Below, piece after piece: positions 1 to 4,899 of a stretch of 5,221 bases of DNA; position 1 is the stretch's first letter, and each line of letters begins with the position of its first letter. Made by a program: the position numbers and the translations under genes. The notes under the pieces were generated by a model, which was not told where the DNA came from, ran no database searches, and saw nothing but the letters and a program-made list of their open reading frames with translations. The stretch comes from Anaerolineales bacterium (lineage in GTDB: Bacteria > Chloroflexota > Anaerolineae > Anaerolineales > Villigracilaceae). The DNA lies in contig JAFGKO010000269.1 in assembly GCA_016928525.1 (NCBI GenBank), positions 1-5,221 of the forward strand, given 5' to 3'.

Positions 1-967
1 CGTCATAACTTCCCAGAACCAGCAGGCTGGGAAAGAAATACACCTGGTACTGGCGGGCGAAGGCCTGCATGCGGGCGATCAGCCGGGGCGCGTCTTCAGT
101 AAATACCACCGCATTGCCGCTCGGCCAGGCTAGGATCTTAATCCCGCTCGGGATCAGCCGCTCTGACGCGGCAAAGAGTTGGTCCTGCACGGCGAAAGTC
201 ATCTGGCGGTATTTTTCTTTTTGCGCCAGCTGGGCATCCTCGGGCTGCTCGAGGTAGGTGTAGAAAATGTTCTCCTCCGGCAGGCCAACGATGACCGAGC
301 CAACCTTGACCGTCCCGGGAGCAGGTGCGTCGAACACCATGCGGGCGCTGCCCCACACAAGAACAAGGACGAGGGTGGTGGTGAAAACGATCACCGGCGC
401 GCGCACTTTTTTGAACTCGAAACCGGCTTCCCACAGCGCGTTGAAGATCGCGGCGAACCAGCCCACCAGGAAGGACGGCCCCCAAACGCCGGTGAGTGAT
501 ACGAGCTGGATGAGAGGCTTCATCGAGAACAGGCTGACCGTCCAGTTCAAGACGGTTCCCAGCGCTTCGCTGTAGGAGAGCAAAAACTGGACGGCAATCA
601 GCGCGGTGGGGTAGACAAGGGTGGACAGCAGTGGGCTGCCCACGCGCCGATACAGCAGCCGGTCGGCGACGCACGGAATTAAGATATAGAGCGTGTAACT
701 GACGGCGATGATCACCTGGAAGAACACGGTCACCTGCACGGCGAGCCCCAGGAAAAAGATATGCGAGGCGAGCAGGAGAAACGGCAGCGCCAGGAGGACA
801 CCCAAAAAATTGTGCGCGTTCCGGAAATAGCGGATGAAGAAGACCCCCCCGATCCACACCAGGATGGGGATATTCCATTTTCCGCCCATGAACAAGAGAG
901 TCACGCAGCCCAGGATGAGCCAGAGGAAGTTGAGCAGCGCTGAGGTTTTCGCTGAGGGAGGGGTCAT
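1..967 (-). CDS. Lnt-like membrane acyltransferase / nitrilase-fold protein, N-terminal part (partial)
   Basis: The gene reads from ATG at 967 leftward with no stop for 322 codons and leaves the window. About seven hydrophobic segments (residues ~12-28, 33-48, 54-73, 76-97, 116-131, 152-175, 190-206) are followed by a soluble domain from ~220. The stretch LIQLVSLTGVWGPSFLVGWF (152-171) resembles the segment before the nitrilase domain in apolipoprotein N-acyltransferases, and KVGSVIVGL (221-229) fits the first nitrilase strand. In that family the periplasmic nitrilase domain transfers an acyl chain to lipoprotein N-termini using Glu-Lys-Cys. Here the strand that should carry the Glu reads ILAWPSGNAVVF, so the expected Glu is Ser283. 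The Lys and Cys lie outside the window. An AGGA ribosome binding site (978-981) sits 10 bases before the ATG, which supports this start. It may be a non-catalytic relative or another Lnt-like family; the exact substrate is unknown. Confidence 0.72.
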   Translation of the reverse strand, partial: MTPPSAKTSALLNFLWLILGCVTLLFMGGKWNIPILVWIGGVFFIRYFRNAHNFLGVLLALPFLLLASHIFFLGLAVQVTVFFQVIIAVSYTLYILIPCVADRLLYRRVGSPLLSTLVYPTALIAVQFLLSYSEALGTVLNWTVSLFSMKPLIQLVSLTGVWGPSFLVGWFAAIFNALWEAGFEFKKVRAPVIVFTTTLVLVLVWGSARMVFDAPAPGTVKVGSVIVGLPEENIFYTYLEQPEDAQLAQKEKYRQMTFAVQDQLFAASERLIPSGIKILAWPSGNAVVFTEDAPRLIARMQAFARQYQVYFFPSLLVLGSYD

Positions 968-1013
968 GCGGTTGGTTTCCTTTCTTGATCGGGGGTGAGC
1001 CAAAATTTCCTTG

Positions 1014-1204: not shown

Positions 1205-1226
1205 GGCTCATCCGTAAAAGGTGTGC
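1205..1226 (+). repeat. Left terminal inverted repeat of the ISL3 element (IRL)
   Basis: It begins GGCTCATCCG and ends AAAAGGTGTGC. It matches the reverse complement of 4187-4208 at 21 of 22 positions, the difference being T1215 against C. Beyond position 22 the similarity drops. It is the transposase binding and cleavage end nearest the start of the transposase. Confidence 0.92.
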
Positions 1227-1318
1227 TGAAGTAGCGACTATACTACAAGATCATCTTTCCAATTCTGGAGAACGATCTTGTGTGAGAGTCCTATTCACCT
1301 ACCCAACTATGAGATTTT
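1227..1318 (+). promoter_or_regulatory. ISL3 leader with possible -10 box and long imperfect hairpin
   Basis: The stretch between the left repeat and the insertion point has a TATACT box (1239-1244) without a good -35 partner. Directly behind it is a hairpin with outer arms ACAAGATC (1245-1252) and GATCTTGT (1274-1281), and an inner 5-6 bp stem (1256-1261 with 1266-1271) around the loop ATTC. In the uninterrupted element it would lie about 37 bases before the transposase ATG. Structures near the inside end of an IS often limit transposase translation from outside transcripts; that role is inferred here. The present insertion separates this leader from its gene. Confidence 0.42.
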
Positions 1319-1435
1319 GAGTGTGACGATCTCCGCCTCGTAAACGAGGCGGCTTCTCAGTCAACGCACGGCGCAACCGCCCACGTTATCGGCTGACCGC
1401 TCCGTCCAAGCGGTTGCGATCCTACGGATCGACAT
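1319..1435 (-). ncRNA. Candidate omega RNA (reRNA) scaffold of the TnpB element
   Basis: In TnpB elements the guide RNA comes from the 3' end of tnpB through the right end, and its guide is the flanking DNA. On the minus strand this region has three compact hairpins in series: 1417-1431 (6 bp, loop of 3), 1396-1414 (ACCGCT/AGCGGT, loop of 7) and the right-end hairpin 1333-1352 (8 bp, loop of 4). The first two lie inside the tnpB coding sequence. The scaffold should end at the element end near 1312-1319, and the guide would then read leftward into the ISL3 leader, beginning about CTCATAG or CATAG. The 5' end of the RNA is not defined by the sequence. Confidence 0.5.
1333..1352 (-). repeat. Right-end subterminal hairpin of the TnpB element
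   Basis: CCGCCTCG (1333-1340), loop TAAA and CGAGGCGG (1345-1352) form a perfect 8-bp stem, 4 bases behind the tnpB stop codon. With its GAAGCC lead-in on the minus strand it resembles the right-end hairpins of IS605/IS1341-type elements, which serve TnpA recognition and omega RNA folding. No T tract follows, so it is not a standard terminator. Confidence 0.75.
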
Positions 1436-2565
1436 AAAGCCAATGAAAGGATATTCCGAGCCGCATTCACGTCTCGGTCAAGGATCAGACCACAAACCGG
1501 GCATTCATGAACATGAACCGACAAACCTTTTGGAACAATCGATCCACATCCACTGCACGCCTGGGTCGTATTGGAGGGGTTCACGGCGATCACCGGAATA
1601 CCGGCATTTTCGGCCTTGTATTCCAGCATTTGTCGGAGCAGTCCAAACCCCGCATCATGCGAAGAAAGGGACAGGTATCGATTTCGGTTCATAAAGTCGA
1701 GGGAAAGATTTTCAATCGCAATCAGATCGTTGCTGGCAACCAGCCGAGAACTGATCTTGTGCAGATAATCCGCCCGTTGGTTCACGATGCGTTCGTGCAA
1801 GCGGGCTATATGCCGGTAGGTTTCTCGCTGGCGATGACTACCCCTGACCTGGCGGGAGGCCCGGCGATGCAGGCGGCGCAGTTTGGCCAGGTTTTTGCGC
1901 AGCCAACGCGGGTTTTCAATCAATTCCCCCGTCGAGAGCGCAGCAAGACTCTTCAAGCCCAAATCGATGCCAACCTGCCTTCCCGTCTGCACAACGCGCT
2001 TTTCAGGATCCGGGAGTTGAGAGTTGCCCCTTGGGGCAATTTCCAACATCAGACAGGCATACCAGCGCTCCCCCACCCGTTTGATAACCGCGTGCTTGAT
2101 CTGCGCTGTTTCTGGGATGGCGCGGTGGTAGCACAAACGAATTTCGCCAACGCGCTGCACGTACAACGATTTGCGCCCATGCGCATCCTGGCGCAGCTTG
2201 CAGCCATCTCCGTAAGTGTATTCAATGCTTTTGAAGCGGCTGCGGCTTTTATATCTTGGAAAGCCCGGCTTATCCCCGGCTTTCAGGCGGCGGAAGAAAG
2301 CCGTGAAGGATTTGTCCAGCCGGCGCAGCAGGTGCTGCAGGCTCGAAGCGTTCAGCTGGCCGAGCATGTCCGGATTTTCGTGACGCAGATCGCGGAAGTG
2401 TGCCCATTGCGCTCCATAGCGAACCCCTTTGCCCGTTTCCTGGTAGGTTGTGATGCGCTGTTCCAGCGCGGCATTATACAACAGCCGAGACTGCCAGAGC
2501 AGGAAATCCAGCTGCATTTCCTGCCCCGGATTTGGGCGAAGAAGGTATTTGAAAGTGCGTATCAC
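1357..2565 (-). CDS. tnpB: TnpB RNA-guided endonuclease (IS200/IS605 family)
   Basis: This 402-residue protein has the usual TnpB length and layout. The N-terminal half (1-195) carries the typical opening MIRTFKYLLRPNPGQ and the GFPRYKSRSRFKS motif (101-113). The split RuvC nuclease follows: motif I GIDLGLKSLAA (Asp201), motif II LIAIENLSL (Glu285) and motif III DRDVNAARNI (Asp365 the probable catalytic residue). Between II and III is a four-cysteine zinc finger (Cys337, Cys340, Cys355, Cys358). All expected catalytic and zinc residues are present, so the protein looks functional. TnpB proteins cut DNA next to a short target-adjacent motif under guidance of an omega RNA made from the element's right end, which helps the element persist after excision. 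The start is GTG at 2565, only 6 bases behind a TACAAT box and without a ribosome binding site, which suggests leaderless translation. The gene runs opposite to the surrounding ISL3 transposase. Confidence 0.95.
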   Translation of the reverse strand: MIRTFKYLLRPNPGQEMQLDFLLWQSRLLYNAALEQRITTYQETGKGVRYGAQWAHFRDLRHENPDMLGQLNASSLQHLLRRLDKSFTAFFRRLKAGDKPGFPRYKSRSRFKSIEYTYGDGCKLRQDAHGRKSLYVQRVGEIRLCYHRAIPETAQIKHAVIKRVGERWYACLMLEIAPRGNSQLPDPEKRVVQTGRQVGIDLGLKSLAALSTGELIENPRWLRKNLAKLRRLHRRASRQVRGSHRQRETYRHIARLHERIVNQRADYLHKISSRLVASNDLIAIENLSLDFMNRNRYLSLSSHDAGFGLLRQMLEYKAENAGIPVIAVNPSNTTQACSGCGSIVPKGLSVHVHECPVCGLILDRDVNAARNILSLALCRSVGSQPLGRSGQPITWAVAPCVD

Positions 2566-2571
2566 AGAACA

Positions 2572-2600
2572 ATTGTACTACGAATTACAGAAAGGAGCAG
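2572..2600 (-). promoter_or_regulatory. Putative tnpB promoter giving a leaderless mRNA
   Basis: TACAAT (2577-2572; 5/6 to the -10 consensus) lies 6 bases before the GTG start of tnpB. The -35 position 17 bases further up reads CTGCTC, a poor match. The spacing puts the expected transcript start at or next to the GTG. It lies inside the element's left end, so the element brings its own promoter. Confidence 0.4.
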
Positions 2601-2642
2601 AGCGGCTTCCTCGGCCGCCTGAAGGCGACCGTCCCCGCCGCT
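2601..2642 (-). repeat. Left-end subterminal hairpin of the TnpB element
   Basis: The inner stem pairs 2612-2619 with 2624-2631 (8 positions, one G-U when read as minus-strand single strand; loop TTCA). The outer stem pairs AGCGGC (2601-2606) with GCCGCT (2637-2642). Purine-rich internal loops (GGGGA and AGGAA on the minus strand) lie between the two. Such imperfect hairpins close to the cleavage site are what the Y1 transposase TnpA recognises at left ends of IS200/IS605 elements. Confidence 0.65.
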
Positions 2643-2643
2643 A

Positions 2644-2650
2644 AGATTTT
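2644..2650 (-). other. Shared junction sequence AGATTTT (second copy 1312-1318)
   Basis: The same seven bases flank both sides of the TnpB element. One copy belongs to the original ISL3 target, the other is the element's own end or cleavage-site sequence. On the minus strand they read AAAATCT, so the target-adjacent motif is probably within or overlapping this string. IS200/IS605 elements do not make target duplications, so this is best read as likeness between the target site and the right cleavage site. Confidence 0.55.
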
Positions 2651-4183
2651 ATGGAAGAACAAGGGCAGGAATTTACCATTGGGGCGCGCTCAACCAGCCA
2701 GCAGGGGATCTGCCCGAACTGCCATACCGTCTCCTCCCATGTGCACAATACCTATCAACGTCCTCCCGATGATCTTCCGATCAGCGATCATTGCGTGCGT
2801 TTGATCTTGGTAGTGAAACGGTACCGCTGCTTGAATCCGGCGTGTTCGAACAAGACCTTTGTCGAGGGTCATCCGGGGTTTTTGCCAAAGTATGCCCATC
2901 GCACCGATCGATTGACCCACTCGCTGCAAGCGATTGCTTTTGCTTGTGGTGGGGAAGCCGGTGCTCAATTGGCTAGCCATCTGCGCATGAGAACCAGTGG
3001 GGATACATTGCTCCGGCTGATCCGCCACTATTCTTTTGCAGAGGCGGCTACGCCGCGGGTGTTAGGCGTTGATGACTTTGCGCTACGCAGAGGGCAGCGC
3101 TATGGAACGATTCTGGTCGATCTAGAAAAACACTGTCCGGTGGACCTGTTGGAAGGGCGGTCGGCAGAGGGATAAACGAAGTGGTTGAAGGATCATCCTG
3201 GAAGCGAGTGGATCACCCGAGATCGCTCTACCGTATATAGCCGAGGCATCGCGGAGAGTGGCTCGAAGGCACAACAGATTGTGGATCGCTGGCATCTCCT
3301 GCGCAACCTACGCGAAGTGCTCGAGCGGATCTTATCCCGATTGTATACGCAGCTCAAAGAACTGCCGATCACGCCTGCCATGCAAAACTTGGCAGTCCCG
3401 ATCCTCCCGAAACGAAAAAAAAGACCACGAGCGAAATGACCCGGCAAAAGGCTCATCGAGCGGAACGCTTTGCGCGCTATGAGGCGATCCAGGCATTGGT
3501 GGCAGAAGGGATGTCTCTCCGTGAAATTGCTTTACGCTTAGGGATCCATCGCGTAAGGGTCCAACGATTTGCAAACGCAGCTACGTTTCCAGAGCGGGCT
3601 GCCCATCAAAGCCAATCCAGTATCCTGGTTCCGTTTCTTCCTTATCTTCAGAAACGATATTCGGAAGGATGTACGAAGTCAACAACTGTGGCGCGAAATC
3701 CGCGAACGAGGGTTTCCAGGAACCAGCAAACAGGTGATTCGGTGGGTACAGCAGACCAAAGCTGGTGGCCCATTGCGTCCGCCCGCCCTCCTGACTCCCA
3801 AACAGCTTGTCTGGGTCCTCCTCAATGATCGAGAGCAGCTGAAAAGCACTGAGCAGGCTTTCCTAGAGTTCGTTTGCCAGGATATGGTGGTTCAACGGGC
3901 TTATTCACAGTCCCAATCTTTTCGGAGCATGGTGCGGGAGCGGCAGGCAGAAAGGTTCCAGGATTGGCTGAGCGCCGCGGAGAAAAGCACGATTACCGAA
4001 TTGAAGCATTTTGCTAGTGGGTTGCGCCAAGATACTTCAGCGATATTTTCCGCCTTGAAAGAAAACTGGAGCAATGCCCAAACGGAGGGACAGAATACCC
4101 GTTTGAAATTATTGAAACGTCAGATGTATGGCCGAGCCAAGCTAGACTTGCTCAGGCAAAGAGTGCTCTATCGTACGCTTTGA
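2651..4183 (+). pseudogene. ISL3-family transposase, one in-frame stop and two frameshifts
   Basis: The composite reading of about 511 codons matches the family's length. The N-terminal zinc-binding part has Cys21, Cys24, Cys60 and Cys65 (CPNC ... RYRCLNPAC). A helical DNA-binding stretch lies at ~98-126. The DDE catalytic domain has [15 protein letters not shown] (Asp141), ITRDRS (Asp191, the likely second Asp), VDRWHLLRNL and, near the end, WSNAQTEG with the catalytic Glu codon at 4085-4087, followed by RLKLLKRQMYGRA. Lesions: TAA at 3173-3175 between RSAEG and TKWLKDHPG; a -1 shift at the A8 run 3415-3422 into the frame beginning TTSEMTRQKAHRAERF; and a +1 shift back near 3667-3682 before QQLWREIRERGF. 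The net frame is restored. The ATG at 2651 follows the TnpB element by at most a few bases, so the gene has lost its leader and any ribosome binding site. Inactive unless recoded; sequencing error could explain individual indels. Confidence 0.88.
3415..3422 (+). other. A8 run at the first transposase frameshift (possible slippage site)
   Basis: The zero frame reads CGA AAA AAA AGA, so a -1 slip on A AAA AAA leads into the frame that continues the transposase (AAG ACC ACG AGC). Without slipping, translation stops at TGA 3437-3439. Runs like this can support programmed -1 ribosomal frameshifting or polymerase slippage. They are also the commonest place for simple deletions and read errors. Confidence 0.45.
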
Positions 4184-4186
4184 CTT

Positions 4187-4208
4187 GCACACCTTTTGCG
4201 GATGAGCC
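4187..4208 (-). repeat. Right terminal inverted repeat of the ISL3 element (IRR)
   Basis: The reverse complement begins GGCTCATCCGCAAAAGG and matches the left repeat at 21/22 positions. It begins three bases after the transposase stop codon (TGA 4181-4183), a compact layout typical of insertion sequences. Confidence 0.92.
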
Positions 4209-4261
4209 CTTTTTCGGGGGAAGCCCACTTTCATATAGCTGCAAAACCAACGCAATACAAT
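4209..4261 (-). other. Remnant between the ISL3 end and the cassette core site
   Basis: If the GTTAGGC at 4262-4268 is a cassette junction, this stretch is the beginning of the next cassette, cut after about 53 bp. It contains an ATG (4234-4232, minus strand) whose frame, MKVGFPRKR, runs into the ISL3 end and stops within it. There is no clear ribosome binding site, so a truncated gene is only a possibility. Confidence 0.3.
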
Positions 4262-4293: not shown

Positions 4294-4899
4294 TCAAAGT
4301 CGTTTCGTCATCTGAATAATGAAACGTGGCAGAAAGGGAAATGCGCTCTGCTGCAATTCGACGGTCATCCCATGACGCTCATAGAGCCTGCGAGCTCCCT
4401 CGTTTCTGGCAGAAGCATCGAGAACGAGCCGAGTGGATCCGCTTGCACGAGCCCGATCTTCAATAGCATCCAGCAAAGCCGATCCAACACCCTGACCACG
4501 AAATTCTTTGCTAGTAGCAATAGCTTGGAGATAAAAATCGCCATCTGTGTGAGTACCAAGAAACCGAAGGCGCGCACAGAGCAAAGTTACCCTCATTTTT
4601 TCAAAGATCTGTTCACCGGCAGCCTGTTTCAATGGTTGATCTGAATATCCGTGATGCTGTTCAGTCGTGTATCCCGTAGCCATACCAACGATGGTCTTGT
4701 TGCATTCGGCAAAGATTGCATGCTGGTAGGAGAAATCATGGTTGGGTTGAGTGTACGCCGCTGCAACGATGTCCGCGGCTTGTCGCCCCAGCATCAAACG
4801 AAATAGACCTTCGAAAGCTTCATCGAGGTAATATGCAAACTTCAAGCCTTCATCAATGGTAGGATTAGCAGATCGAAGGATCACCAAACGTTGATTCAC
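4294..4899 (-). CDS. GNAT-family N-acetyltransferase
   Basis: This 201-residue protein should transfer an acetyl group from acetyl-CoA to an amine. The acetyl-CoA binding motif A is clear: FYLQAIATSKEFRGQGVGSALL, with the pyrophosphate-binding loop RGQGVG at 134-139. Helix DAIEDRARASG (144-154) and the late segment LVLDASARNEGARRLYERHGM (158-178) are the usual motif B region, where NEGARRLYERHGM packs under the CoA. The N-terminal third (DEGLKFAYYLDEAFEGLFRLMLG) is helical and may shape substrate binding. The substrate cannot be told from sequence; such genes in mobile cassettes include antibiotic, toxin and small-molecule acetyltransferases. The start is GTG at 4899, the only in-frame choice, with GAAGGG (4917-4912) 12 bases upstream. 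It is a single-gene unit and lower in GC than the attC-like site in front of it. Confidence 0.9.
   Translation of the reverse strand: MNQRLVILRSANPTIDEGLKFAYYLDEAFEGLFRLMLGRQAADIVAAAYTQPNHDFSYQHAIFAECNKTIVGMATGYTTEQHHGYSDQPLKQAAGEQIFEKMRVTLLCARLRFLGTHTDGDFYLQAIATSKEFRGQGVGSALLDAIEDRARASGSTRLVLDASARNEGARRLYERHGMTVELQQSAFPFLPRFIIQMTKRL

Follow-up and report, generated by a model that had tools for sequence, protein, structure and literature searches.

A tnpB-only IS200/IS605-type element nested in a broken ISL3 element of an Anaerolineales bacterium

Results

Nested arrangement of two insertion sequences

The window, that is the whole 5221 bp stretch of contig JAFGKO010000269.1 from an Anaerolineales bacterium, harbors an ISL3 element that is bounded by two 22 bp terminal inverted repeats and encloses both a broken ISL3 transposase gene and, on the opposite strand, a tnpB-only element of the IS200/IS605 type. 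A split by insertion is supported, by comparison, by both ends of the tnpB element and its CCAT motif, by the length excised, by the reading frame that is restored and by relatives free of the insert. Very probably, a non-autonomous tnpB-only element has split a pre-existing ISL3 3' of a CCAT on the minus strand, without target duplication. The arrangement is composed of the following features:

1205..1226, plus strand: left terminal inverted repeat of ISL3, GGCTCATCCGTAAAAGGTGTGC, identical to the right repeat in 21 of 22 bases
1267..1270, plus strand: GGAG, probably the ribosome-binding site for the ISL3 transposase, located 7 nt upstream of TTG, read directly
1278..1322, plus strand: first 15 codons of the ISL3 transposase gene, giving LCESPIHLPNYEILS when read from TTG, matching the N-termini of P0001 and P0002
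1323..2650, minus strand: tnpB-only IS200/IS605-type element of 1328 bp, right end ...GATCGTCAC and left end CCAT/AAAATCTTAGCGGC, placed by comparison with relatives
1323..1356, minus strand: right end past the tnpB stop, predicted 3' scaffold of the right-end RNA (reRNA), with a hairpin (1333-1352) and then the TCAC terminus
1357..2565, minus strand: tnpB, 402 aa, RuvC residues D201, E285 and D365
2601..2650, minus strand: left end with an imperfect hairpin (2601-2642; DNA fold z -2.08)
2651..2654, minus strand: CCAT, the target and transposon-adjacent motif of the element, ATGG on the plus strand
2651..4183, plus strand: remainder of the ISL3 transposase gene, containing an in-frame stop (3173-3175) and two frame changes
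4187..4208, plus strand: right terminal inverted repeat of ISL3, paired with 1205-1226

An initial annotation of this DNA had described an oppositely oriented tnpB inside 22 bp ISL3 ends, and this nesting is borne out by the near-identity of the repeats and by the score of the TnpB product with the NCBIfam model guided_TnpB (NF040570), which was 271.6 bits (cut-off 100). Pfam matches to the TnpB domains PF01385, PF07282 and PF12323 were also detected, and the protein has the RuvC acidic residues and the zinc-binding TNB domain of a tnpB-only member. An alignment with TnpB of ISDra2 from Deinococcus radiodurans (8bf8, 8h1j), covering residues 4-388 (E 5e-50 for 8bf8), places D191, E278 and D361 of the latter opposite D201, E285 and D365, so that the two proteins are alike in their RuvC residues; E278 and D361 we take to be active-site residues of ISDra2 TnpB. 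For D191 this role is described in PMC8612924.

A tnpA gene was not found in 1323-2650, where the frames besides tnpB are either 64-83 aa long or form a 371-aa frame opposite tnpB without a match to a Pfam family. Four related loci (L112, L114, L115 and L110) do carry tnpA directly upstream of tnpB (Y1_Tnp, PF01797, 86.9-134 bits, cut-off 23) and have the same CCAT left end as the window element; from their sequences, they look like autonomous versions of it.

Boundaries of the tnpB element

TnpB relatives are present in Anaerolineae, and 3' of tnpB they share a hairpin followed by a TCAC terminus, past which the sequences diverge. Hairpin and terminus were found in 14 of the 15 loci with at least 47% identity, the window counted (12 by script, L096 and L099 by eye), while the fifteenth, L075, ends before that point; L024 and L025 represent one insertion in two genomes. 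The terminus reads GTCAC in all but L029. Overall, the script placed hairpin and TCAC in 19 of 47 distinct loci, of which at least two placements, those given for L096 and L085, are spurious. The shared TCAC end sets the right end of the window insert at 1323. On the other side, CCAT lies directly outside a shared imperfect left-end hairpin in 13 of the 17 loci examined, the window counted (L024, L112 and L109 read by eye). Since this CCAT is the complement of 2651-2654, the element occupies 1323-2650 and is 1328 bp long.

Subterminal hairpins are thus found at both ends (z -2.08 and -2.54, with 8 and 4 of 200 shuffles folding as well), and the inverted-repeat listing of the window contains none at 1323/2650. 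This combination, together with an insertion site 3' of a short fixed motif and the missing target duplication, is that of the IS200/IS605 tnpB-only group.

TnpB was also detected at two loci in viral contigs, L117 (50% identity) and L118 (26%); L117 has CCAT and TCAC ends like the window element, the left one lying some 520 bases ahead of tnpB. A plasmid tblastn search with TnpB returned 3691 records, all below 60% identity.

The insert splits the transposase gene after codon 15

Left of the insert, the transposase starts at TTG 1278, and its first codons correspond to the uninterrupted N-termini of two metagenomic proteins, P0001 with MCV-PIHLPGFEIEA (MCV-PIHLPGFEIEAQEEQKQE) and P0002 with MCAYPIHLPGFEIGT (MCAYPIHLPGFEIGTHEDQEQE). 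These proteins are 82% and 81% identical to the window transposase and, at 524 and 525 aa, intact, in contrast to the window copy; P0001-P0004 are all uninterrupted and intact. The right flank continues the transposase reading from 2651, and joining 1322 to 2651 restores both the frame and the spacing of the family, the joined flanks reading LCESPIHLPNYEILSMEEQGQE... with a spacing equal to that of P0001 (FEIEAQEEQKQE). In a scan of 1680 junctions against six relatives, with TTG 1278 as the assumed start, 827 gave an open frame, and each of the 12 best listed removed exactly 1328 nt. The length obtained from the transposase frame is therefore the same as the one given independently by the ends of the relatives. 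Taken together, these sequence comparisons indicate that the insert separates codon 15 of the gene from codon 16. The transposase does not start at ATG2651, which is a codon within its coding sequence, and the ATGG at this position is the CCAT motif as read on the plus strand. At the empty site, the expected DNA would be ...GAGATTTTGAGT/ATGGAAGAA... at junction 1322/2651.

The initial annotation had placed the insert between a leader and the start codon, with ATG2651 opening the transposase, GAG at 1311-1313 serving as a weak ribosome-binding site, the flanks joined at a shared AGATTTT and the coding sequence left whole. We consider this hardly credible. An AGATTTT is indeed present on both sides (1312-1318 and 2644-2650), ATG2651 opens a frame of 174 aa, and when two points of the window were drawn at random 20,000 times, only 2.1% of the pairs had a common 7-mer within 12 nt. 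However, eight of the nine relatives in alignment A1 extend 13-17 residues upstream of the position of ATG2651 (the ninth, P0006, is without its N-terminus), and the corresponding 15 codons of the window lie left of the insert, preceded by GGAG rather than by the GAG. Joined at AGATTTT, the flanks give GAGATTTTATG, which translates as LCESPIHLPNYEILWKNKG..., a frameshifted N-terminus, as 1332 nt instead of 1328 are removed and the product is 4 nt short. Such a join disregards the common TCAC end and does not account for the N-terminal codons that match the relatives. The repeat is therefore real, but it is not the seam, because the ends of the relatives place the insert at 1323-2650; one copy lies within host gene codons and the other within the left end of the insert, and their likeness is a coincidence that is unlikely yet possible by chance.

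State and distribution of the ISL3 element

Nor is the coding sequence downstream whole, as it contains, besides the cut by the insert, the in-frame stop and frame changes at about 3410-3440 and 3660-3690. A run of eight A at 3415-3422 lies at the first frame change and may result from an error in sequencing or assembly. Pieces matching PF14690, PF01610 and NF033550 follow each other in order, as in a DDE_Tnp_ISL3 transposase with an N-terminal zinc ribbon. Because the gene is broken, these pieces (152.7, 41.2 and 119.5 bits) each stay below the whole-protein cut-off of NF033550 (180). By its terminal repeats and domains the element is a member of ISL3, and by its transposase a broken one. This copy is unable to make a whole transposase; as both inverted repeats remain, it might still be movable in trans.

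ISL3 relatives were detected in 52 of 396 Anaerolineae genomes, the six strongest being 39-47% identical, which is too distant to provide an empty site at the DNA level. At E ≤ 1e-60, ISL3 was found in none of 147 genomes of the family, in a search run without a positive control. In plasmids, tblastn with P0001 gave 3286 records, among which the 15 listed matches were at most 42.5% identical and five unlisted ones fell in the 60-80% band, and a DNA search for distant matches to the ISL3 part gave one 78-base match. Viral contigs yielded neither ISL3 relatives nor the terminal-repeat pattern. As candidate ends, 22-mers like the ISL3 terminal repeat (2 mismatches) occur in 3 of the 396 Anaerolineae genomes. 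In the pieces fetched for the 8 places with such 22-mers, two ends never lay 800-4000 bp from each other, so that a target duplication was not readable, and none of these loci was among the ISL3 matches at E ≤ 1e-8 in the 108 sequences compared.

Nearly all of these 108 sequences, which partly overlap, had been retrieved because they contain a relative of either tnpB or the ISL3 transposase, and their flanks do not exceed a few kb.

CCCCC and GGGGG stand outside the ISL3 inverted repeats (1193-1204 and 4209-4220) and may be what is left of a hairpin target, or due to chance.

Neighboring genes

An apolipoprotein N-acyltransferase-like gene (2-1003, minus strand), cut by the window edge, is 96% identical to the metagenomic P0241; its few named relatives come from Anaerolineae (two), Thermoflexales (one) and Bacteroidales/Bacteroidota bins (two), a set from which a Chloroflexota host could only be guessed. 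On the other side, a GNAT acetyltransferase gene (4294-4899, minus strand) matches Pfam Acetyltransf_1 and does not reach the cut-off of any of the 15 listed NCBIfam models. Rfam gave no match at gathering thresholds, and a scan for promoters and terminators stayed at chance level.

Discussion

Order of events

Because the insert breaks a gene that is continuous in its relatives, ISL3 was there first and tnpB came second, an order already given by the initial annotation and one that holds in our sequence comparison. It is very unlikely that tnpB is instead a resident passenger of this ISL3 lineage which moved along with ISL3 and was no later invader. Intact ISL3 ends around tnpB would fit such a passenger, but the most similar ISL3 proteins run on without a break at the codon where tnpB is inserted, the window is the only one of the 108 sequences in which both genes occur together, and the tnpB relatives examined have unrelated flanks, four of them with tnpA. 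Related ISL3 copies that always carry tnpB at this place, which according to the initial annotation would have spoken against its order of events, were thus not what we found. The uninterrupted copies that it predicted do exist as proteins (P0001, P0002), but none was seen as DNA, with its predicted junction CTATGAGATTTTATGGAAG or otherwise.

Several observations weigh against insertion of a tnpB-only element into an older ISL3 as described here. With no uninterrupted ISL3 copy seen as DNA, the empty site is deduced from protein sequences and from where related elements end. In the junction scan, shifted junctions of the same length scored 882 and 881 versus 873 for 1322/2651; the frame sets the excised length but not the offset, so that the exact offset rests on the TCAC and CCAT comparison. 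For the latter, CCAT was not shown at the left end in four of the 17 loci (L098 at 47% identity; L070, L072 and L073 below 40%), the script for CCAT plus hairpin is unspecific and also picks out unrelated sites in L113, L108 and L073, and the left ends were chosen by mutual likeness. ISL3 elements duplicate 8 bp of their target, and no such duplication is visible around the window copy (CCAGAACT vs CTTTTTCG); a later change or a deletion adjoining the element could explain this. Finally, nothing indicates expression of TnpB or its RNA.

Comparison with known systems

IS608 carries tnpA, and so does ISDra2, whereas the window element is without it. ISDra2 has its motif outside the left end and lacks a target duplication, as is the case here, and both ISDra2 and IS608 are described as inserting 3' of a fixed motif (PMC8612924). 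The motifs given in that source are TTGAT for ISDra2 and TTAC for IS608 of Helicobacter pylori, the latter a tetranucleotide too, in contrast to CCAT in the window element. The same kind of ends, with TnpB 63-75% identical, is found in tnpB-only elements of Anaerolineae (L002/L003 from Levilinea and Leptolinea, and L004), whose fetched flanks, unlike the window, did not contain an ISL3 transposase; elements of this type are also named IS1341-type. Narrow searches of the open literature for nesting of tnpB in ISL3 and for a CCAT motif of TnpB returned no paper and looser ones on nesting a few, which does not prove that either is unpublished.

Proposed mechanism and predicted guide

The tnpB-only element very probably inserted 3' of CCAT on the minus strand of the older ISL3, without duplicating its target, and would have been mobilized by TnpA supplied in trans through single-strand peel-and-paste. 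TnpB is described as using a right-end RNA in which the flank supplies the final ~16 nt (PMC8612924), and by this rule one further feature is predicted:

1303..1322, minus strand: predicted guide of the reRNA, ACTCAAAATCTCATAGTTGG, just past the right end and antisense to transposase codons 9-15

With this sequence or its first ~16 nt as guide and CCAT as motif, TnpB would be expected to cut an emptied or sister ISL3 copy that has CCAT at the same place, and repair after the cut would restore the insert. That TnpB, driven by this guide, in this way parasitizes a different insertion sequence, cutting sister ISL3 copies, copying itself in, spreading through the ISL3 family of a genome and silencing its transposases, appears improbable. 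At the codon giving the motif, the eight relatives with residues there have Q, H, V, I, V, V, V and V, and Met in no case, so that the in-frame ATGG (CCAT) should be missing there and such copies should escape cutting, which speaks against a wide reach of guide-driven spread.

The whole case is an ordinary nested insertion of one bacterial jumping gene, the TnpB element, inside another, ISL3. It cleanly illustrates how a tnpB insertion can be placed in the order of events, with the frame of the split gene fixing its length. It also calls for caution, as the CCAT motif reads ATGG on the other strand after an antisense tnpB element and mimics a start codon. A role of TnpB in gene drive has been reported for plasmids (PMC11870625), and guide-driven spread, if true, would extend the plasmid gene drive described in that source to multicopy insertion sequences.

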